Source: a virus
Direction: 5' to 3' (one strand)
IMG/VR virus record: IMGVR_UViG_3300032285_000900
Location: 1 to 49,055 of that record
DNA: 49,055 nt
Shown: positions 7,610 through 45,286 of the stretch, piece by piece
Layout of the letters: the number at the start of each line of letters is the position of its first letter
Numbering within the stretch: the first letter of the stretch is position 1
The notes under the pieces: model-generated
Seen by the model: only the letters and a program-made list of their open reading frames with translations
Databases searched by the model: none
What the model was told of the DNA's origin: nothing
Translations under genes and position numbers: made by a program

Positions 7610-10169
7610 TGCAGAAAAAGAGATTGGCTCCCTTAGTAAGGGAGTACAAGAATTAATCTCACAACTTAAAACTCTTGGTAGAGAAATTGTTGGGTTTCCT
7701 TCTACTAAAGGAATGCTTCAGTCTATTGTTGGTGGAGCAGCCAATTCTTCTGGAGGTATAGGACAACTTACCCTAGGTTCTTCTGGCAATAACTCTTTAA
7801 GTGGCGCTTTAGCCGATGTAAATGTACAAAACTTTTTAGCGGCTAGTCGTCAAAGAAGTCAATTCCAAGCCAATGTTATGGGCGGTATCCAGGCTGGTAC
7901 TGGAATCCTAAGTGGTGCCATGGCTGCTATGCCAGATGTAGCAGGAACTACTGCTAGAAGTACTGGCTATTACAACGCAGGTGTTTTAGGCAGTGTAGGT
8001 ATTTACGGGCCTAATGGTTTAGCTGCACGTGGACTAGCTTCTATGGCTGGTGGGCTACAATTTAAGGGCGCAGATGCTGCTGTAGCTAATACTCTTGCTG
8101 CTCAAGGTATTACCGCTGGTGGAGATAACTTCTACAACATTATGCGGTCAACCGCAGGAGTTACAAGACTCACTAATATGGGTAACGTTCAAGCAGCGGC
8201 TGCTCTTGGAGGACTTACTGCTGGTGGAACATCTGCAGCACTTATGCGTAACTTTGGCGTATTTACAACTAACCCAAATACCAGCCAAGCATACAGCCCT
8301 AGTCAAATTTTTGCACAATTGCAAGACAGACTTACAATGGGTGGAACTATTAAGCCTACTGTAGCTCAACTTAACCAGCAGCTACACGGTGGCTATCTTG
8401 GTCAAGATTTAGCCAACTCAGGGCTAAGTGCAGACGAACAAAGTATCTTTTTTCAGGGATTAGTAAACAGTGCTAAAACTGGTTATAAAACTATGACTGA
8501 CTGGGCTAACCCAGGAACTTACTCTGCTCTTCAAAAGCAAGTGGGAACTAACCCACAATCAGCACTATACAAAATGGCACAAGCACAGACTGGTACTGAA
8601 CAAGCTGCTATGGGTGCGTATGTTAAAGGTATGGAAGATGCTGCTGTTGCCGTAACGAAATTCCAACAGGCAATTACTAACTTCCTAAACAGTGGTGTGG
8701 GCCAGTTAATGGCTAGAGGAAACGCTAGTTTGCAAACTGCAGCTACTGATAACGCTATTAATGGTGCGTATGTTGCTGGAAGCTCTGTTTTAGGTGCTGG
8801 GATTAATATAGCTGGTGTTGCTGCTCAAAATCAAATGTTGGCAAGAATGACTGGAGGCGCTGCTGCTCTTCAATCACCGTATACTGTGTTACCTAATGGC
8901 GCTGTTAAAGGTCCTAATGGCAAGTTTGTTAGTCAAGCAAAGTACAATACTTGGCTTGCAAGTTCTGAGGGCAAAGCTTACGCACAGAATGCTGCTAATG
9001 CTGCTAGAACTCAAAGAGCTGGTATGACTGCTTCCCGTTTAGGAAAGGGAAGCATTATGGCTCTTGGTGGACAGGTAGCTGGCTCTATAATCCAAAATCT
9101 TCCAGGAAATACCCAAGGTAGTGTTGGAAGTAAGATAGGTAATGCAATTAGCACCGCTGCTCAATGGGGCAGTATGGGTATGATGCTAGGAAGTCTTGCT
9201 GGTCCCGAAGGCACATTGATTGGTGGAGTCGCAGGAGCCCTTATTGGAGGAACAGTAGGTGCTTTTTCTGGTGGTTCTAAAAGCACTGTAAACTCTGGCT
9301 CGCAATCACCTACTGGAGAAGGAAGACCTAACTTAGTTGCTCCAGTAAAAGCTCAAATTACTACTAAATGGGGACAGGTAACAGACGCTCATGGCGTTGC
9401 CCTTTGGGGAGGTAACCCCCACAAAGCTATTGACTATGGTGTGCCTACAGGAACTGCTGTGCAAGCTTCTGGTGATGGTAAAGTTGTAGAAATGGGATCT
9501 GGATCAGGAGATAGATCTTACGGTAATTACGTAATTATTGACCATGGCAGTGGCTACTCTACGCTTTACGCCCACTTAAGTGAGTTTAGAGTAGGACGTG
9601 GCGATGTTGTCAAACAAGGTATGGTTATCGCTTTATCTGGTGCTACTGGTTATGTAACTGGTCCTCACCTTCACTTTGAAGTTCGTCAAAATGGGCAATC
9701 AGTTAACCCTAGTTCCTGGTTAGGTGCGGGAGTAGCTGCTGTTGCAGGTAATTTCGTTACTAGTGCCTCAAATAAAGCAGGTAGTTCTGCTTCAGGTGAC
9801 TCAGGGTCTTCTGGTATGTACGACGGTGGCTCTTATTCTTCAGGTGCTTCTTCGGCAACCAGTGGCTATAACGTGGGAACTATGAGTGCCTCAAATACGA
9901 TCCCTAAAGCGTATACAGGTGCTGCTATTGCTGGTGCTGCATCAGGAATTGCTGGATCAGGAACCACTCTAGGTCATGCTTCACCAAGAGCTGGAGCCAG
10001 TACTCCTTACCAAGGAGGTCCTAACTTAGCTCGTGGTGGTGGAGGCAATAACGTTACGATCAATGTAACTATTTCAGAAGCAAGTGCTGATGAGGCTCGT
10101 AAATTTGCTCAAATGGTAAAATCTTATTTAGATAAAGATAGTCTTACACGTAGTATGGGAGCCTTGTAA
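7602..10169 (+). CDS. Tape measure protein with M23 peptidase domain
   Basis: An 855-aa protein after the chaperone gene. The first 570 residues are Ala/Gly/Ser/Gln-rich and helical, with hydrophobic glycine-rich stretches (GTLIGGVAGALIGGTVGAFS) typical of tape measures. Residues about 590-705 form an M23/LytM metallopeptidase: His607 and Asp611 in HKAIDYG, the LYAHLS strand, and PHLHFE with His689 and His691 as zinc and catalytic residues, all present. A Gly/Ser-rich linker and a helical end (ADEARKFAQMVKSYLDKD) follow. It would set tail length and, on injection, cut peptide cross-links in the cell wall. At about 1.5 angstrom per residue the tail would be up to roughly 130 nm (inference). 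Confidence 0.9.
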   Translation: MSDAEKEIGSLSKGVQELISQLKTLGREIVGFPSTKGMLQSIVGGAANSSGGIGQLTLGSSGNNSLSGALADVNVQNFLAASRQRSQFQANVMGGIQAGTGILSGAMAAMPDVAGTTARSTGYYNAGVLGSVGIYGPNGLAARGLASMAGGLQFKGADAAVANTLAAQGITAGGDNFYNIMRSTAGVTRLTNMGNVQAAAALGGLTAGGTSAALMRNFGVFTTNPNTSQAYSPSQIFAQLQDRLTMGGTIKPTVAQLNQQLHGGYLGQDLANSGLSADEQSIFFQGLVNSAKTGYKTMTDWANPGTYSALQKQVGTNPQSALYKMAQAQTGTEQAAMGAYVKGMEDAAVAVTKFQQAITNFLNSGVGQLMARGNASLQTAATDNAINGAYVAGSSVLGAGINIAGVAAQNQMLARMTGGAAALQSPYTVLPNGAVKGPNGKFVSQAKYNTWLASSEGKAYAQNAANAARTQRAGMTASRLGKGSIMALGGQVAGSIIQNLPGNTQGSVGSKIGNAISTAAQWGSMGMMLGSLAGPEGTLIGGVAGALIGGTVGAFSGGSKSTVNSGSQSPTGEGRPNLVAPVKAQITTKWGQVTDAHGVALWGGNPHKAIDYGVPTGTAVQASGDGKVVEMGSGSGDRSYGNYVIIDHGSGYSTLYAHLSEFRVGRGDVVKQGMVIALSGATGYVTGPHLHFEVRQNGQSVNPSSWLGAGVAAVAGNFVTSASNKAGSSASGDSGSSGMYDGGSYSSGASSATSGYNVGTMSASNTIPKAYTGAAIAGAASGIAGSGTTLGHASPRAGASTPYQGGPNLARGGGGNNVTINVTISEASADEARKFAQMVKSYLDKDSLTRSMGAL

Positions 10170-11740
10170 TGGCTAATAGTCACGACTTTACACCAGTAGT
10201 TTTAACTGCTCAAGAAAAGGCTGCTAAACAGCAGACAGAGAATAATCTTGTATCTACAACTGCTGCTCAAAAAACTGCAAAACGAAAACAGAAAAAAGAA
10301 GAAGCTACTTTTAATTCAATTAAAAGTATGAAACCTTTTGCAACTGCTATAAACACTGCTCCTTATACAGTAGGACTAAGCCATGCAACTATTACTACTG
10401 CAGTAATTACTAATAAGGTAGCTACTATTACTTGGAGTGGAACACTTCCTTCTGATCTTTCTGCACAATCTGACCCAAGACTTGGTAATAAAGTATTTAT
10501 TGATGGTCTACCTTCTGCTTTTAATGGGAAATTTTTCCTTAAGTCTATAGACCATGTAACTAAACAGTTAACTTACTCAGTAAACGCTAGTAACACTAAC
10601 TATGTTACAAATCCACCTAAGGGAACTGTTTTTGCAAATCTTCTAAAAGACTCAGATTGGATTAGCCTAATATACGGCTATAGCCACTATGAAGATGCTG
10701 ATTATGTAACTAAATTAGGTACAAGCTATGACAAAATTCAAACTTATAAAGAATCTGTAAAAACTTACCAAAAGCAAATAGATCAGTATTATAAAGACCT
10801 TTCTAGTATTGCTAAGGGAACCATACCTTCGGCCCTTGGTGGGTCAACTGCAGTATCTACTGCCGTTATGCCTAAACCTGACCACAACCAGGTAACATAC
10901 AATATCCCTAGTGTTAGAGAATCTTATTTTAAAGAAACTTTTAATGATAAAAACCCAAGTTATGACACTGTTCAATTAATAACTTCTGGTGGAGCCCCAG
11001 TCTCCGTCTTAGAAGCAGCCGAACTATGGAGTAATGATAAAACTCACAAGGGAATGATCCAAAGTTTTATTATTCCTGGGGGAAGTAGCACCAACAATGG
11101 AATTGGTAAAGCTACCAATGTGACACCAGATGCTTGGAATAAAAATTACCCAAATAACGGACGTTATGCTTACCAATTCCAATACAATCCTGGGGTTGTA
11201 GATATGGTGTACGCTGGCATGCAGAATGTAGACCCAGGGTTGGTGATGTCTGGTGTAAACCAGATTCCATTAATTGGTGCGTCTAATACATCTTCAAGTA
11301 TTGATTTCGACATTATTATAAATCGTATGGCCGATATGAAATACATTCGATCTACCAATAAATCGGATGCTAGATTAAGCGATAATTATGTATATGGAAG
11401 AGCTGTTTCAACAGATGACTTGCAAAAAATTAGTGACAAAGGAACTATGTATGATTTAGAGTTTCTTTTGCAAACTCTTCTTGGTTATAAAACTAACTCT
11501 AAATTACGTGGGTTTACTTCTGATGTAGGATATATGGGAACATTTCCTGTAGAACTACACTTGGGTAAATCACTTCGATACATCGTTATCATTAACTCCT
11601 TAACTGTTAGCCACACTATTTTTACAAAAGATATGGTTCCCGTGTATACAAACGTTCACGTAAGTGCTGGCCGTATGCCTGACGTTGGTTTTAACAACTT
11701 AATTACCAACACAACTGCTTACCAAGCAGGCGTTAAGTAG
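10169..11740 (+). CDS. Baseplate/tube-adapter protein (CIS-tube/LysM-associated type)
   Basis: A 523-aa protein at a TAATG junction. The C-terminal 200 residues show the contractile-injection-system tube/adapter pattern: YAYQFQYNPGVVDMVYAG, then SSSIDFDIIINRMADM, then PVELHLGKSLRYIVIINSLT and PVYTNVHVSAGRMPDVG. In related phages this protein lies between tape measure and hub and is followed by a LysM-type protein, as here. The N-terminal 330 residues contain a KRKQKKEEA coiled segment and a beta-rich domain I do not recognise. Confidence 0.65.
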   Translation: MANSHDFTPVVLTAQEKAAKQQTENNLVSTTAAQKTAKRKQKKEEATFNSIKSMKPFATAINTAPYTVGLSHATITTAVITNKVATITWSGTLPSDLSAQSDPRLGNKVFIDGLPSAFNGKFFLKSIDHVTKQLTYSVNASNTNYVTNPPKGTVFANLLKDSDWISLIYGYSHYEDADYVTKLGTSYDKIQTYKESVKTYQKQIDQYYKDLSSIAKGTIPSALGGSTAVSTAVMPKPDHNQVTYNIPSVRESYFKETFNDKNPSYDTVQLITSGGAPVSVLEAAELWSNDKTHKGMIQSFIIPGGSSTNNGIGKATNVTPDAWNKNYPNNGRYAYQFQYNPGVVDMVYAGMQNVDPGLVMSGVNQIPLIGASNTSSSIDFDIIINRMADMKYIRSTNKSDARLSDNYVYGRAVSTDDLQKISDKGTMYDLEFLLQTLLGYKTNSKLRGFTSDVGYMGTFPVELHLGKSLRYIVIINSLTVSHTIFTKDMVPVYTNVHVSAGRMPDVGFNNLITNTTAYQAGVK

Positions 11741-11754
11741 CTAGGAGATTTTCA

Positions 11755-12030
11755 ATGATTTATTCAGATAGTAGATACGCTGATGGGTATATTTACAAAG
11801 CCCAAAGACCTATTGACGGTAGTTACCAGATAAACGTAGACAGAGTATTTCCTACAATGACTGCAAACTTTTATTATTATGAATGGGTAGCAGGGGATCG
11901 AGTAGACACTGTTGCTTATTTCTCATATGGAAATTCTTCTCTATGGACTAGAATTGCTGACTTTAATCCAGAAATTTTAGATTTTACAAGTATTGCGCCA
12001 GGAACTACTATAAGGATTCCTTATGTCTAG
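11755..12030 (+). CDS. LysM-like baseplate protein (tail protein X type)
   Basis: A 91-aa protein with ribosome-binding site CTAGGAG before ATG 11755. Residues 40-91 read YEWVAGDRVDTVAYFSYGNS, then LWTRIADFNPEILD and PGTTIRIP, the LysM/tail-protein-X pattern (a 'GDR.d.iA...yGn...W..I...N' core and an 'G..i.iP' end). In myophages such small LysM proteins join the tube end to the baseplate hub. It overlaps the hub gene by eight bases. Confidence 0.75.
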   Translation: MIYSDSRYADGYIYKAQRPIDGSYQINVDRVFPTMTANFYYYEWVAGDRVDTVAYFSYGNSSLWTRIADFNPEILDFTSIAPGTTIRIPYV

Positions 12031-13309
12031 TGTTAATGGTAAATGGCGTAGAGGTACGCTATATAAAGTAAGTTTTCCTACCTTGGCTACTTTAGATATC
12101 CAACCTAGACGTGTTGAATTGCTTCAATCTATCCACACGCATGAAATCCTTACTATGGAGTTTACAAATGCTCCAGATAATTACTTTCAACTATTAAGAA
12201 CAGGTGTTCCTGTTCAGTTTGAGTATTCTCAAGGAACAATAACCAGTACTTTTTTTGGTGTAGTTTCAACAGTTACTAAACGTGTTGCGGGTCAACGTGT
12301 AAACGTAACTGAGGTTACTTGTATTGGTAGCACCTTTTCTTTAAAAGAACGTAAAAATAAAACTTATTACAACACCACAATCCCAGAGGCAGTTCACTCG
12401 ATTGTTTCTGAATTTGGATTTAACTTTATTGGAGAACCACACCCAGTAAAATTTGATCAATTGAGTATTGCTGGACATTCTTATTGGGAATGGATTCAGG
12501 AATACGCTAAAAAAATTGGCTATGGTGTAGTAGTTATTGGTATGGATTTTATTTTTAAGCCTTTAGACAAAATTATTGATCAAAATATGACTAATGTACC
12601 TGTTCTTTCTTTCTTTGGTAAAGAAATGGGTATCAATAGTCAAATTTTTGATAGAACTTTAGACTCTTTTGAGGCGCTGAATGGTGAGCACGTAGAATAC
12701 AGCCATTCACTTCGTACAAATAAAACTGTTGGTGGAGTAGACCCAATAAGTAGCACAATTGTAAATGCCACTTCATCTCCAAAAACAGTTGGAAAAAATA
12801 TCAGAAAAGATGTAAATGATGTTTTATTTAACGAAGTTAGAAGTGACCAAGTAGTTACTAGTCACAATCTTGCTAAATCAATGTCTGACGGAGCAGCTCA
12901 TAATGGTAGATTGAACACTCCTGCACGAGTTAAGTGTCAAGGAGATCCAAGAATTCGTCCTTATGCACCTGTATACATCCAGGGAACTGGCACTACTAGC
13001 GATGGTTACTGGATCTGCAAAGAAATTAAACATATGTTTGCCTACATAGGTGACTACCAAATTGAAATGACTGTGTACTCGGATGGTTTAGGTCCTGCAG
13101 CAGTAAGCACACTTCGACAAGGAACTGTGACTATCTCTGGGGTGGTAAACTTAACAGAGGCATTGAAGAATGGTGGAAAGAACCCCGCTAGTCCTTCTAC
13201 AAAGAAAGTAACTCTTAAAGCAAAAACACCGTTAGTGTCTGCTTCTAAACAAGGGTTTAAGAGAACACCAGTAGCTTGGACCAGTAAAGGAGTTAAGGGA
13301 CATAAATGA
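12023..13309 (+). CDS. Baseplate hub protein (gp27/gpD-like)
   Basis: A 428-aa protein with the layout of late-control D/gp27-type hub proteins: an N-terminal beta barrel that includes PVQFEYSQGTITSTFFGVVS, VTEVTCIGSTFSLKERKNKT (the characteristic 'v.c.g....l' strand), TIPEAVHSIVSEFGFNF, SYWEWIQEYAKKIGYGVVVI and a C-terminal barrel ending in QIEMTVYSDGLG. The hub trimer connects the tube to the spike (encoded at 15623). The C-terminal tail is Lys-rich. It overlaps the gp25-like gene by four bases (ATGA). Confidence 0.75.
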   Translation: MSSVNGKWRRGTLYKVSFPTLATLDIQPRRVELLQSIHTHEILTMEFTNAPDNYFQLLRTGVPVQFEYSQGTITSTFFGVVSTVTKRVAGQRVNVTEVTCIGSTFSLKERKNKTYYNTTIPEAVHSIVSEFGFNFIGEPHPVKFDQLSIAGHSYWEWIQEYAKKIGYGVVVIGMDFIFKPLDKIIDQNMTNVPVLSFFGKEMGINSQIFDRTLDSFEALNGEHVEYSHSLRTNKTVGGVDPISSTIVNATSSPKTVGKNIRKDVNDVLFNEVRSDQVVTSHNLAKSMSDGAAHNGRLNTPARVKCQGDPRIRPYAPVYIQGTGTTSDGYWICKEIKHMFAYIGDYQIEMTVYSDGLGPAAVSTLRQGTVTISGVVNLTEALKNGGKNPASPSTKKVTLKAKTPLVSASKQGFKRTPVAWTSKGVKGHK

Positions 13310-13743
13310 GTAACCAAATAACCAAAATCTCAGAAGTAGCTATTTCTCTTCCATTTACTATTACTCAGTTTGGTACTATTAACGCTACTACTGATCAAAA
13401 TAAAATCTGGGCAGACAGAGTTTTATCTGTAATAGGCACTGGCTTCTATGAACGTGTTTTAAACCCTACTTTTGGTAGTACTATGTACACTGCTCTTTAT
13501 AACAACACTGACTCAACTATTTCTAATAGTTCTGCAGTGGTACAAATTACTAACTCTATTAAAGATGCTTTTATTACTTTTCTACCTCTGTTATCTTTAC
13601 AGGATGTTAAAGCTAACTTTGATTCAAACTTAGGCGTTCTGTCTATTGAAGTTATTTACCAACTTCCTAACCAGAAAACTTCTACGCTAACTGTTGGAGC
13701 GGTTAGCATTAATGGAAATACTCCTCCAACTGAAAGACGATAA
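13306..13743 (+). CDS. Baseplate wedge protein (gp25/GPW family)
   Basis: A 145-aa protein starting at ATGA overlap. KIWADRVLSVIGTGFYERVL, then NPTFGSTMYTALYNN and the late DVKANFDSNLGVLSIEVIYQ match GPW/gp25 proteins ('w......l..t..GeR...p.fG..l...l' and a terminal beta strand pair). The usual 'GeR.m.p.yG' block is here GFYERVLNPTFGST, a close variant. gp25 nucleates sheath polymerisation at the baseplate. The next gene is baseplate J, its normal neighbour. Confidence 0.88.
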   Translation: MSNQITKISEVAISLPFTITQFGTINATTDQNKIWADRVLSVIGTGFYERVLNPTFGSTMYTALYNNTDSTISNSSAVVQITNSIKDAFITFLPLLSLQDVKANFDSNLGVLSIEVIYQLPNQKTSTLTVGAVSINGNTPPTERR

Positions 13744-41117: not shown

Positions 41118-41147
41118 TTGTAAAAAGTACTCCTCTGCTGGTATGAT
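41118..41147 (+). promoter_or_regulatory. Promoter with extended -10
   Basis: TTGTAA (41118-41123), an 18-base spacer and TGGTATGAT, with TATGAT at 41142-41147 carrying the TG extension. It lies in the only gap between the 35-41 kb and 41-45 kb modules. Transcription would start near 41154, within the hairpin described separately. Confidence 0.5.
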
Positions 41148-41169
41148 ATTAAATACCAACAGAGGAGTA
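41128..41169 (+). promoter_or_regulatory. Long hairpin that masks a ribosome-binding site
   Basis: TACTCCTCTG-C-TGGTAT (41128-41144) pairs with ATACCA-A-CAGAGGAGTA (41153-41169), leaving an eight-base loop and one C/A mismatch. The right arm contains AGAGGAG, the ribosome-binding site for ATG 41175. In transcripts from upstream the site would be paired; in transcripts from the local promoter the left arm is missing and the site is free. There is no good T-run, so termination is less likely. Confidence 0.55.
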
Positions 41170-41174
41170 TTTAC

Positions 41175-41372
41175 ATGTCTAAAGAAGCACCACACCTAGG
41201 TTTGATGATGTGGACCGATCTAAACGGTACCCCACGACCAATGATTGGATCCATTGAGCATGAACGTCGTGCAAAACTGCATGAAGAGAAGCGTTTAGAA
41301 GCGTTATCAACACCAGAAGGTCAACAATGGCTAAAAAATAGTCCATTATCAATGTCAAAAGATAAGAAGTAA
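41175..41372 (+). CDS. Small protein with hairpin-controlled start
   Basis: A 65-aa protein (GLMMWTDLNGTPRPMIGSIE; HERRAKLHEEKRLEALSTPE; QQWLKNSPLSMSKDKK). Charged, soluble. No family recognised. AGAGGAG is seven bases before ATG 41175 and lies in the hairpin described separately. The TPEG-x2-WL motif is shared with the protein at 40077. Confidence 0.6.
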   Translation: MSKEAPHLGLMMWTDLNGTPRPMIGSIEHERRAKLHEEKRLEALSTPEGQQWLKNSPLSMSKDKK

Positions 41373-41381
41373 TTCTAAAAT

Positions 41382-41951
41382 ATGTCTAATTTTATCGGAA
41401 CAGATGGTAAACCATTAATTGGTTCAAAGCCAGTTGAGGGCCCCATTATTCGGCTACTACGCTGTTTTGTCTGTGAAACTTGGGAAGAACTGCCCGACTA
41501 CGAAGGCCGTTCAGACCAGGATTACCTCCTAGAAATTTCCTTAGAGAAGCATAAGTTTCCTTCTGGAGATCCACACGTAGGTAAGCTGTTTAAAGTACCT
41601 GTTAAGTCATGGTCAAACCCAGAAGAGCGTAAAGCTATTATGGACCAGTTGGCTAAGGGTGGGTCTAAAGGACTAGACGAACTGGACCCAGAGAAGTCAT
41701 TTTATGAGACTAAAATGACATTTGCTAATGATGCAATGGAGTGTTGGGTTAAGCATAACCGTCCTAAAAATGACTGTGATGATTACCAAAAACCAGCAAA
41801 ACGCCTTCTACCAGACACCGCTAAAGAACGTGGTGAACTAGGTTTGCCAAAACCAGAACACTTGGATGGCCCAAAAATTTATACATGCAATTTCTGCCCA
41901 TATCACGGAGAAGTTGTTCAGCGTAAACGTCGTATTTTAGGAATGTATTAA
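41382..41951 (+). CDS. Conserved hypothetical protein with Cys pairs
   Basis: A 189-aa protein. CFVCETWEELPDYEGRSDQD near residue 28 and CNFCPYHGEVVQRKRR near 169 provide two CxxC pairs, probably one zinc site folded from both ends. The middle is acidic/basic mixed (KAIMDQLAKGGSKGLDELDP). No ribosome-binding site is obvious. It opens the 41-45 kb module. Function unknown. Confidence 0.6.
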   Translation: MSNFIGTDGKPLIGSKPVEGPIIRLLRCFVCETWEELPDYEGRSDQDYLLEISLEKHKFPSGDPHVGKLFKVPVKSWSNPEERKAIMDQLAKGGSKGLDELDPEKSFYETKMTFANDAMECWVKHNRPKNDCDDYQKPAKRLLPDTAKERGELGLPKPEHLDGPKIYTCNFCPYHGEVVQRKRRILGMY

Positions 41952-42244
41952 TGGCAATTGAAACTTATTTTTTAGTAGCAGTAAATGATGATGGAACGTT
42001 CACTACTTACACTGAACTTCCTGCAGAGCCGCTAATTGCGGCAAAGAAGGCGACTAATTTTGATGTGTACCAATCTTGTAAGCAAATTGCGCAAGAGTTT
42101 GACTCACAAATTTTGGTAGATCGTATTACCAGAGCAGTTGTAGCCTCGTTAATGCCGCCAAAAGAGCCTACAACCCCAGATAAAATCAAGGATGCCCTAA
42201 AAGAACGTGGTATTAACCCAGAAAGCAAACAACCAGTCCAATAA
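41951..42244 (+). CDS. Hypothetical protein
   Basis: A 97-aa protein at a TAATG junction. MAIETYFLVAVNDDGTFTTY suggests a small beta domain; the middle is helical (FDVYQSCKQIAQEFDSQILV) and the end Pro/Lys-rich. No family recognised. Confidence 0.6.
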   Translation: MAIETYFLVAVNDDGTFTTYTELPAEPLIAAKKATNFDVYQSCKQIAQEFDSQILVDRITRAVVASLMPPKEPTTPDKIKDALKERGINPESKQPVQ

Positions 42245-42253
42245 ACTAGTTGT

Positions 42254-43153
42254 ATGACTGTTTACGGCAACAACCCAACATCTTATTTCAGCGCACCCAG
42301 CTCAGAGCTAGACCCTAAGTTATTTCAGGGAAGAATGCTACAGAGCTGGGTGCGTACTGGTATACGCAGCGTTCTTATTGATTTCCTACACACTAAGTAT
42401 CGCCACGCAGAGTTGTGGTCGCACCCATGGTTAGCAGGTTCAGGTGTTTCCTATCAGTGGTCAGCAGATAGGCAGCCAGGTGATTTAGATTGCCTAGTAG
42501 GTATTGATTTTGTACAGTTTCGTCAAGCTAACCCAGAGTACAGAGGGTTGACAGACCGAGAGATTGCAGACCAATTAAACGAAGATTTCCATAATGGTTT
42601 GCAACAACAAACTGAAAATTGGAATGGGTATGAATTAACATTTTACGCCCTAACTACAAATGACATTAGAGACATCAAGCCGTATGCCGCATACGATTTA
42701 AAGTATGACGAATGGACAGTAACGCCTAACCCAGTTCAACAGTCGCCAGTTAATTCAACATGGGATTCCATTGTAAACAATGATTATCATGTAGCACAAC
42801 AGGCGCATACTCGATTTAATGCAGCGTTAATTGAGCTAGGAACAAGCCAGGGTGGGCCAAGTAAGCGCAATATTGAGGCACGTTTAGAGGCCGCAGCATC
42901 TCAGGCAACATCATTGTATGAAGAAATTCACGGTGGTAGAGGCAATGCCTTTTCTCCTATGGGCCAAGGATATGGTGATTTTTATAATTACCGTTGGCAG
43001 GGCGGAAAGAAGTCTGGAGCCATTGATTTGCTGAGAAACATTAAAAAGTATGTTGAATCATCACGTTTAAGTAACGACAAAAATGTGTACGGAGTAGACT
43101 TACCTGATTACAACACGTTAGTACGACGTGCCGCAACCTACAGGAGTAACTAA
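42254..43153 (+). CDS. Nucleotidyltransferase-like protein
   Basis: A 299-aa protein. After a helical start, HPWLAGSGVSYQWSADRQPG, DLDCLVGIDFVQFRQANPEY gives Gly62-Ser63-Gly64 and Asp77-x-Asp79, the GS...DxD signature of the pol-beta type nucleotidyltransferase fold. NWNGYELTFYALTTNDIRDI continues the sheet, and YADF-like GYGDFYNYRWQGGKKSGAID and LPDYNTLVRRAATYRSN close the protein. Similar proteins are conserved in actinophages (recalled). The substrate is unknown. Its stop TAA leads directly into the Cys-rich gene. Confidence 0.6.
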   Translation: MTVYGNNPTSYFSAPSSELDPKLFQGRMLQSWVRTGIRSVLIDFLHTKYRHAELWSHPWLAGSGVSYQWSADRQPGDLDCLVGIDFVQFRQANPEYRGLTDREIADQLNEDFHNGLQQQTENWNGYELTFYALTTNDIRDIKPYAAYDLKYDEWTVTPNPVQQSPVNSTWDSIVNNDYHVAQQAHTRFNAALIELGTSQGGPSKRNIEARLEAAASQATSLYEEIHGGRGNAFSPMGQGYGDFYNYRWQGGKKSGAIDLLRNIKKYVESSRLSNDKNVYGVDLPDYNTLVRRAATYRSN

Positions 43154-43248
43154 TTTCGCTAAAAGATACATGCCACAAATGTGGGCATGAATTATACAAA
43201 GACATTTGCACAGCTGATAACTGCAGATGTGATTGTTACGAGGACTAA
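43153..43248 (+). CDS. 31-aa Cys-rich zinc peptide with apparent ATT start
   Basis: Between 43153 and 43248 one frame encodes SLKDTCHKCGHELYKDIC, then TADNCRCDCYED: six Cys and two His in 31 residues, clearly non-random. There is no ATG, GTG or TTG in it. ATT at 43153 overlaps the upstream stop exactly as ATG does at the TAATG junctions elsewhere (here TAATT), and AGGAG lies six bases upstream (43142-43146). An ATT start is rare but known (infC). Four bases separate its stop from the HAD gene. Confidence 0.6.
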   Translation: MSLKDTCHKCGHELYKDICTADNCRCDCYED

Positions 43249-43251
43249 CAT

Positions 43252-43737
43252 ATGCACATTTTGGTAGACGTAGACGGTGTATTAAGAGGCACAAGTAACG
43301 AACCAATTCCTACTGGAATTATTATGGTTGGTACGTTATCTGTGTATAACACGCTAACTTTTATGGGTGCAGAGCCCGAAGAATCCTTAGAGCAATGGTT
43401 GAACGCCAACAAAATAGTTGATTATGACCGAATTGTTGACTCACGAGTATCCCTAGAGGGAGAAGACCTAGCCCATAGACAGATTCGTTTAGTGCGTAGT
43501 AGAGGGCCATTAGATTTATTTATCACTAATAACCCTAATCTGTGGGCATTTGCGTTTGAGTTAGGCATTCCTAGTGCCATGTTTGGTGTACCAAGTTACA
43601 CCAGAGTTGAGTTCAGACCAGATGCACCTAAAAAAGTGCGTGCATGGAATCAGATTGAGTCCGAAATTCAAAAGCAAAATGAATTACGAACCAAAGATGC
43701 ACGTTTAAGCCGCACAGAAAGCCTCAATTTCGAGTGA
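43252..43737 (+). CDS. HAD-like phosphatase
   Basis: A 161-aa protein (site CGAGGA before ATG 43252). HILVDVDGVLRGTSNEP has the HAD nucleophile motif Asp6-x-Asp8-G; LDLFITNNPNLWAFAFELGI is motif II-like (a Thr at the end of a strand). Motif III/IV is less clear. A small phosphatase or nucleotidase is likely. It sits in the 41-45 kb module; its stop overlaps the GTG of the next gene. Confidence 0.7.
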   Translation: MHILVDVDGVLRGTSNEPIPTGIIMVGTLSVYNTLTFMGAEPEESLEQWLNANKIVDYDRIVDSRVSLEGEDLAHRQIRLVRSRGPLDLFITNNPNLWAFAFELGIPSAMFGVPSYTRVEFRPDAPKKVRAWNQIESEIQKQNELRTKDARLSRTESLNFE

Positions 43738-45233
43738 TTATATTTTCTGGTGTTGAAATACCTTCAAATAGAACGTTATTAGAGCGTAGTGGCGCAACAA
43801 ACGTAATGTTGTCTTACTGGGGCCTACGTAAGCGTGGATTACCAAAGACAAAGCCGTATTTAATAGGGGAACATTTCCTACCAGGTATGAAAGTATGGGT
43901 TGACGCAGGGGCAACTCAGGCAGACCAGGCAAATTTATCCAGAGCTGAGCTAATGGATTACGCTGCCGATTACGAAGAGTTTATTGCGTTAAATTATGAC
44001 CGTATTGAAGGATTTGTAGAGTTTGATAGTCAAGTATTGGGGTTAAATACCGTCATACAAAACCGTGGTGTGTATGAAAATGATCCAAAGTTATGGGTTG
44101 TTTGGAGAGAAACATACGGGATTGGGGCCCTTAGATCCTGGTCAGCTCAGTATCACAACATTGCGATTCCACATGAAACAGTGGAGTCAATGACCACATT
44201 GTCAGGTGTTATTAGAGGCATAAAGACGCAGAATGATGTTAATTTTCATGGGTTAGCAATGGCCAAGCCAGATAACTTAAGGCAGATTCCATTCACCAGC
44301 ACCACTACATTATCGTGGTTATCACCAATGCGTAGAGGTGAAACAATTATTTGGGATGGCAGCAAGTTAGTTCGTTATCCTAAGAAAATGAAAGACCAAG
44401 CACGGCCTCGTTATAAGGGTATTGTGTCTAGTGCGGGATTAGATTTTCACAAGTTTATTTCAGACGATACATTAGAGGCCACAAGAGTCGCAGTATGGTC
44501 CTATTTACAGTTAGAGGCAAATATGGATAAGAATAAGCCAGACCTAAAGTTCATCCAAGGTGGTAAAAAGGAGCCTATGTTATCTGATAATAACGATGAC
44601 ACCCTGTATACCAGTTTGATGGAAATGGATGGGTACCTTTCTAATAACAGTGTGGATACAGTGCGGAAACAAGAACGTACTGAAGTGGTCCAAAGAGACC
44701 CACAAGAGATGACCCAAATGCCCGTTTTTGGGTTCCAAATGAAGACCATTGTTGAGAATGAAGATGGTCGAGATGTACTAAAAGATGTGCCAGTAGTACA
44801 GTCTAAAACAGCCAGTTTAAGACAGTGTAATACCTGTTTTGTAGCAGCAAATTGCCCAGCATTTAAAGACGATAACACCTGTGCATTTAACCTGCCAATT
44901 GAGGTAAAAACACCAGAACAACTAAAGGCAATGAATACCGCATTATTGGAGATGCAGGCCCAGAGAGTAGCATTTATGCGGTATGCAGAGGAAATGAACG
45001 GCGGATACGCAGATCCAAATGTGTCGCAGGAGATGGACCGTTATTTCAAAATGTTAGAGAGCATGAAGAAGTTAGATGAGCAAAAAGAGTTCATCCAAAT
45101 CACTGCTCAGAAGTCAGCTTCCCAGGGAATGTTGAGCGCAATTTTTGGAGATAAAGTACAAGCGTTAAAGGAACAACAGCAGGGGTTATCTGAGCAACAA
45201 ACAACCCATATTATCCGTAATACAATCGAGTAG
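43734..45233 (+). CDS. Large conserved protein, possible TGT/DpdA-like barrel with C-terminal Cys cluster
   Basis: A 499-aa protein with GTG start (GTGA overlap). The N-terminal half reads like an alpha/beta barrel: MIIFSGVEIPSNRTLLERSG, LPGMKVWVDAGATQADQ, YEEFIALNYDRIEGFVEFDS and FTSTTTLSWLSPMRRGETI. This order ('lvDsGA', 'd.y..lD', 'hs.dSt.Wl') is similar to phage tRNA-guanine-transglycosylase/DpdA-type proteins, though the motifs are altered and no other deazaguanine genes are seen. Residues 365-383 carry four Cys (C365-x2-C368-x5-C374-x8-C383), then helices. Function is inferred weakly; a terminator follows. Confidence 0.5.
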   Translation: MIIFSGVEIPSNRTLLERSGATNVMLSYWGLRKRGLPKTKPYLIGEHFLPGMKVWVDAGATQADQANLSRAELMDYAADYEEFIALNYDRIEGFVEFDSQVLGLNTVIQNRGVYENDPKLWVVWRETYGIGALRSWSAQYHNIAIPHETVESMTTLSGVIRGIKTQNDVNFHGLAMAKPDNLRQIPFTSTTTLSWLSPMRRGETIIWDGSKLVRYPKKMKDQARPRYKGIVSSAGLDFHKFISDDTLEATRVAVWSYLQLEANMDKNKPDLKFIQGGKKEPMLSDNNDDTLYTSLMEMDGYLSNNSVDTVRKQERTEVVQRDPQEMTQMPVFGFQMKTIVENEDGRDVLKDVPVVQSKTASLRQCNTCFVAANCPAFKDDNTCAFNLPIEVKTPEQLKAMNTALLEMQAQRVAFMRYAEEMNGGYADPNVSQEMDRYFKMLESMKKLDEQKEFIQITAQKSASQGMLSAIFGDKVQALKEQQQGLSEQQTTHIIRNTIE

Positions 45234-45249
45234 TGTTATCTGATAATAA

Positions 45250-45286
45250 GCCCCCATCATATTGAGAGTATGGTGGGGGTTATTTT
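45250..45286 (+). terminator. Intrinsic terminator after the 41-45 kb module
   Basis: CCCCCATCATA (45251-45261), seven-base loop, TATGGTGGGGG (45269-45279), with one G-T pair, followed by TTATTTTAT. It ends transcription before nrdJ. Confidence 0.85.

Follow-up and report, generated by a model that had tools for sequence, protein, structure and literature searches.

What does a phage gain from a DpdA-like gene kept within a tightly packed block of poorly known genes? DpdA is the phage enzyme that exchanges guanine for preQ0 in DNA, and the annotation "DpdA" is taken as a marker of 7-deazaguanine DNA. The question is raised by positions 41,382 to 45,233 of IMG/VR virus record IMGVR_UViG_3300032285_000900, a 49,055-base stretch that was analysed whole and is hereafter called the window. 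The block ends with a gene for a 499-residue DpdA-like protein, and a first-pass annotation, made from the sequence alone, had proposed that its genes form a coupled pathway editing a nucleotide, a base or a tRNA. Our analysis supports that interpretation only in part. In our best reading these genes do not form a base-editing pathway, and we give about an even chance to their being a packaging or recognition set built around a catalytically dead, DpdA-derived terminase small subunit (TerS), or a closely related adaptor, with accessory proteins.

A DpdA-type barrel without its nucleophile

The TGT/DpdA-like character suggested at first pass for the 499-residue protein held up well. The protein matches PHROG 887 (E value of 2e-57), into which the DpdA of phage 9g also falls over positions 1-283 of 509, and an hhalign comparison of eight canonical DpdA-type sequences with the family barrel reached 98% (0.2% for the reversed control). 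The AlphaFold2 (AF2) model contains a barrel at residues 1-265, mostly with pLDDT values of 76-94, and its top Foldseek matches are TIM barrels, with murine TGT (7owz) at rank 7. These comparisons of sequence and predicted structure indicate a true homologue of DpdA and TGT with a TIM-barrel fold. Searches of PDB sequences with profiles of the DpdA-like protein and of three other block products, the nucleotidyltransferase (NTase)-like, HAD-like and CxxC proteins, returned nothing meaningful, and an Rfam search gave sub-threshold matches only.

The active site of this barrel is altered throughout the family. In an ungapped alignment of the nucleophile region, YSVDSSSW of canonical DpdA faces TSTTTLSW, and the canonical site VDSSSW corresponds to (T/S)(A/V/T/S)(S/T/A)(T/S)xSW in the family. 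Among 127 distinct family sequences the nucleophile column holds Ala in 95, Val in 22, Thr in nine, Ser in one and Asp in none; the Asp is kept in all ten canonical DpdAs examined (9g, Ssp-JY38, StAugustine, Tinciduntsolum, phiFN37, Typha, ART, BS162P1, contig L197 and Salmonella phage 7-11). In bacterial TGT, Asp280 carries out the attack and Asp102 acts in product formation (PMC6165067). The equivalent of Asp102 (D57) is Asp in 52, Glu in 62 and His or Asn in 13 of the 127 sequences, the Asp of the EFD motif (D98) is conserved in 123, and the only barrel acids strictly invariant across 22 representatives, E96 and E248, do not occupy the nucleophile position. Lacking the nucleophilic Asp, the 499-residue protein is therefore not expected to catalyse base exchange.

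The genes that supply preQ0 are missing from the same phages. None of 19 module-bearing records searched for QueC encodes it, and QueD and FolE are missing from all 20 module-bearing genomes, several of these records being fragments and those of Streptomyces phages GiJojo and BRock complete genomes; QueD and FolE were both found in 3 of 3 control genomes with an intact DpdA. Loss of the nucleophile thus accompanies loss of the substrate genes. The missing preQ0 genes are a non-absolute criterion against DpdA activity, given that many phages carry dpdA alone, a situation explained by host supply (PMC6884629). Hutinet and co-workers reported mycobacteriophage Orion to be without 7-deazaguanine and Salmonella phage 7-11 to contain some, measured as dADG (PMC6884629). 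An active DpdA using host-supplied preQ0 is nevertheless disfavoured, because the nucleophile is lost here whereas dpdA-only phage 7-11 retains its Asp. Compared with the DpdA of Enterobacteria phage 9g (gp03) and of the mycobacteriophage Rosebush type, the 499-residue protein shares the TIM barrel, the DSG and LD/FD motifs and the HG(F/L) strand, but it lacks the nucleophile, carries an extra TerS-type C-terminal domain and comes without preQ0 genes.

A C-terminal domain shared with terminase small subunits

The Cys cluster noticed at first pass is a separate C-terminal domain. Outside the DpdA-like and Bacteroides-type group, its best relatives are TerS proteins of Gordonia, Tsukamurella and Rhodococcus phages. 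Gp9 of Gordonia phage Demosthenes, a TerS whose gene lies directly upstream of that of the large subunit (TerL) and overlaps the TerL start, matches PHROG 887 at 2.9e-4 over exactly the Cys domain. Compared by hhalign, the family C-terminal domain and nine TerS C-termini gave 96%, the reversed control 0.8%. Conversely, a profile built from eight TerS C-termini found seven matches in 15 module genomes, all seven inside the Cys domain of the DpdA-like gene. In GordTnk2, GMA3 and Mbo2 the domain stands behind different TerS N-termini; found after such varied partners, it therefore behaves as a TerS module. Judged by these profile comparisons, the C-terminal domain of the 499-residue protein is homologous to that of TerS. 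TerS proteins of this type (PHROG 6902/16015; Demosthenes gp9, GTE7 Orf1) have a like C-terminal CxxC-x5-C-x8-C and helical domain, and differ in an unrelated-looking N-terminus and in a gene placed immediately upstream of TerL. A BT50 TerS considered as a further homologue of the domain was unsupported.

The 499-residue protein is thus probably the terminase small subunit of its lineage. It descends from DpdA, has lost the nucleophile and has its barrel fused to a TerS-type Cys-rich helical domain. We propose that the barrel now binds phage DNA and is linked by the C-terminal domain to TerL. As subunits or chaperones, the complex would include the CxxC protein, the small proteins and the pseudo-HAD protein; the NTase, more speculatively, would modify or regulate the complex or its nucleic-acid target. 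Near-universal retention of the block with one type of TerL fits a core packaging function.

Bacteroides phage BS162P1 and contig L197 of IMG/VR have the same two domains in adjacent or overlapping genes and a related TerL, but in them the domains are unfused, the DpdA nucleophile is intact and preQ0 genes are present (QueC nearby; QueE in L197). The window's group and the Bacteroides-type phages have related large terminases, with phmmer values of 1e-62 to 1e-84; no relation to Gordonia TerL is seen at phmmer sensitivity. As the DpdA and C-domain genes are still separate in Bacteroides-type phages, we tentatively picture a DNA-modifying lineage giving rise to a packaging specificity subunit, in which the adjacent genes were fused, catalysis and the preQ0 genes were lost, and the former exchange pocket came to read phage DNA for the terminase with the assistance of the NTase-containing operon. 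This course of events is possible, and we hold it with less confidence than a packaging role as such.

Other features of these loci were recorded. Positions 1866-5324 of contig L197 hold genes for QueC and the intact DpdA, an overlapping gene for the separate C-domain protein, and one for QueE, with FolE and QueD elsewhere on the contig. In BS162P1 (L209, bases 8500-13500) the 910-residue TerL frame is broken after DLIVQK by CYAEDTLINLPYG...GFLLGD, an insert that looks like an intein. Mycobacteriophages StAugustine (L089), Tinciduntsolum (L090) and Typha (L092) carry ParB-like, DpdA and preQ0 genes directly upstream of the terminase gene, a further link of 7-deazaguanine modification with packaging loci; mycobacteriophage DpdA neighbours proved not to be carriers of the C-terminal domain.

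Several points weigh against a packaging role. The matches of the TerS-only profile are individually weak (E values of 0.0045-0.42), their weight lying in the fact that all seven fall in one gene. TerL lies about 28-41 kb from the DpdA-like gene rather than next to it. The N-terminus of Gordonia TerS has no significant similarity to the barrel (hhalign probability of at most 4.5%), and the idea that it is a further diverged barrel, raised by an eye-level resemblance, was dropped at the same value. The TerS of these phages could also be another, unrecognised protein, for example the product of a 78-residue open reading frame (ORF) before TerL in L110, where TerL is preceded by small unassigned ORFs; no TerS annotation was found in GiJojo. 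The packaging proposal leaves the role of the NTase unexplained. Finally, the free C-domain protein of the Bacteroides type adjoins an intact DpdA with QueC/QueE and not TerL, and a general partnership in DNA modification or DNA binding is therefore another possible role of the domain.

This last point leads to an alternative that we consider unlikely: a non-catalytic subunit that binds nucleic acid or a base, partnering a host enzyme or protecting or regulating phage DNA, its C-terminal domain being a zinc DNA-binding module also used by TerS. Eukaryotic QTRT2 offers a precedent as a catalytically inactive TGT subunit, with the TGT fold and replaced catalytic residues like the 499-residue protein, although QTRT2 is cellular, dimerizes with the catalytic QTRT1 and has tRNA as its target (PMC6165067). 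The Bacteroides-type C-domain protein encoded beside an active-type DpdA is also compatible with such a role. Yet the stretches of GiJojo examined carry no annotation of a second DpdA/TGT partner, and the similarity of the C-terminal domain to TerS runs past the metal knuckle into the next helix.

Conservation of the block as a unit

Hundreds of bacterial viruses have kept this gene set together. The DpdA-like protein found 127 places when scanned against IMG/VR; with a broader alignment there were at least 318. In the first scan, the order CxxC, NTase, HAD-like, DpdA-like was found in 55 of the 56 loci with at least 6 kb of upstream flank. With the NTase as bait, 517 places were found and 80 of them kept; where the flank sufficed for counting, the CxxC gene was a neighbour in 69/69, the HAD-like gene in 74/74 and the DpdA-like gene in 65/65. 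Co-occurrence is far above chance, and the block is among the most conserved of its phage lineage. The conserved unit supposed at first pass is therefore real; of the two outcomes then named as speaking against the first-pass interpretation, the lack of a TIM barrel and homologues scattered singly, neither was seen, since a barrel is predicted and the homologues co-occur.

Streptomyces phages GiJojo, BRock, Alone3, LuckySocke and pSt2308 also have genes homologous to those for the NTase, the HAD-like and the DpdA-like protein. The GiJojo and BRock neighbourhoods include a CxxC homologue and have the identical block order, but with an endolysin and one extra gene inserted and ribonucleotide reductase not adjacent. 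In one far relative (L131) the CxxC, HAD-like and DpdA-like genes are present and no NTase is detected. No NTase of this kind was found in Bacteroides-type or other DpdA phages.

The nucleotidyltransferase-like protein and its neighbours

By its motifs, the 299-residue protein is the sole block member with an intact catalytic set, in agreement with its first assignment as nucleotidyltransferase-like. The pol-beta-type residues G62, S63, D77, D79 and E127 are invariant in 58 of 58 sequences and are also kept in the far relatives, and the GS, DxD and third carboxylate sit on predicted core strands (AF2 pLDDT of 91). Foldseek matches of the model among viral proteins include one phage "nucleotidyl transferase domain" protein; in the PDB it matched largely helical proteins, and none of these matches reached E≤0.001.

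The 161-residue protein, called a HAD-like phosphatase at first pass, fared less well. It looks HAD-like by motif I alone: the first Asp of this motif is present in only 11 of 61 sequences and lost in 50, BRock-type members read VVEG or VVNG with both motif-I Asp residues gone, and no Pfam or PDB profile match to HAD was obtained. The 189-residue CxxC protein, homologous to GiJojo gp175 and BRock gp42, has invariant C28, C31, H57, C121, H125, C132, C169 and C172, and probably binds zinc. The 31-residue Cys-rich peptide, already noted at first pass, is shared by about 15 near relatives. Its frame contains no ATG, GTG or TTG; because an ATT lies 6 nt after AGGAG (window 43142-43155), where relatives have GTG or ATG, it probably uses a natural ATT start codon. 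We know of no described pathway with the composition of the block, as had also been remarked at first pass.

These properties bear on a second alternative, in which the DpdA-like protein works as a transglycosylase whose chemistry has been rebuilt (another nucleophile or a non-covalent exchange), taking in a product of the NTase, trimmed by the HAD-like protein, and altering a base of phage DNA or of tRNA. The invariant NTase motifs, the many tRNA genes in the GiJojo record, an Asp or Glu at the TGT Asp102 equivalent in 114/127 sequences and the near-constant EFD Asp (123/127) are in its favour. Against it, the nucleophile is missing in 127/127, neither E96 nor E248 aligns with it, module genomes lack preQ0 genes, the HAD motif-I Asp is gone in 50/61 and L131 has the DpdA-like and HAD-like genes but no NTase that could be detected. 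We judge this version quite improbable, and the editing pathway initially proposed meets the same obstacles (no nucleophile, no QueC, QueD or FolE, a HAD Asp mostly lost) together with a Cys domain that points to TerS. Least probable of all is a role as minor components of the virion or of head assembly, reusing enzyme folds and taking no part in DNA selection, which would suit the extreme retention and synteny of the block and the loss of catalytic residues in both the HAD-like and DpdA-like proteins, but not the full catalytic motif set of the NTase or the distance of the block from the head genes in GiJojo.

Organization of the window and of the block

The window is a fragment of a contractile-tailed phage. 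Its left part encodes the tail sheath, tube and baseplate and its middle part replication proteins, with ribonucleotide reductase near the right end. By megablast, the window matched nothing in the phage collection. At its left edge, an ORF at 8-595 matches a phage beta-1,4-glycosyltransferase family (PHROG 13126, E value of 2e-51).

Features of the block are listed in Table 1. The ORFs lie where they had first been drawn, either overlapping by 1-4 nt or 9 nt apart, the exception being a 98-nt gap that holds the 31-residue peptide. The block had been described as running from its own promoter to its own terminator. The terminator was confirmed, terminator-like sites in the region exceeding those of shuffled sequences (12 versus 3.8 ± 1.7), but promoter-like sites are at chance level (13 versus 10.2 ± 3.5). 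Shared codon habits were also borne out: TTA makes up 48% of Leu codons in the block versus 23% in 15 other genes, and CCA 61% versus 45% of Pro codons, TTA enrichment being absent from the first gene of the block. In this phage the block probably starts one gene earlier, with the 65-residue ORF upstream. Just before its ATG, a 20-nt inverted repeat (window 41125-41172, 90% complementary) carries AGAGGAG in its 3′ arm and could sequester the ribosome-binding site or serve as a terminator for the other strand.

Table 1. Features of the DpdA-like gene block, in window coordinates
Feature	Position	Strand	Remarks
65-residue ORF	41175..41372	+	Directly upstream; seen only in few close relatives
189-residue CxxC protein	41382..41951	+	Eight invariant Cys/His
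97-residue small protein	41951..42244	+	Syntenic, poorly conserved
299-residue pol-beta-type NTase-like protein, helical C-terminal part	42254..43153	+	Motifs, AF2 model, Foldseek
NTase catalytic motif set G62-S63, D77-x-D79, E127	42437..42634	+	All invariant
31-residue Cys-rich peptide (ISLKDTCHKCGHELYKDICTADNCRCDCYED)	43153..43248	+	Probable ATT start
161-residue HAD-like protein	43252..43737	+	DVDGV as motif I; most relatives have a degenerate form
499-residue DpdA-like protein, GTG start	43734..45233	+	Predicted N-terminal TIM barrel without nucleophile; C-terminal TerS-type Cys/helical domain
Codon D57 (aligned with DSGAF Asp, TGT Asp102)	43902..43904	+	
Codon D98 of EFD motif (aligned with DpdA LD(V/G)IGD Asp)	44025..44027	+	
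Codon T190 (at TGT/DpdA nucleophile Asp position)	44301..44303	+	
C-terminal domain, CxxC-x5-CP-x7-C and helix EMQAQRVAFMRYAEEMNGGYADPN	44811..45158	+	Homologous, by profile comparison, to TerS C-termini
Intrinsic terminator closing the block	45249..45281	+	Strong, 15-pair stem

Implications for phage annotation and packaging

For a large group of phage proteins the annotation as DpdA misleads, since their nucleophile is missing, and inspection of this residue provides a simple filter. If the link to TerS is true, it would supply the missing terminase small subunit of a widespread phage lineage, and would represent a rare instance of a packaging adaptor derived from a DNA-modification enzyme.

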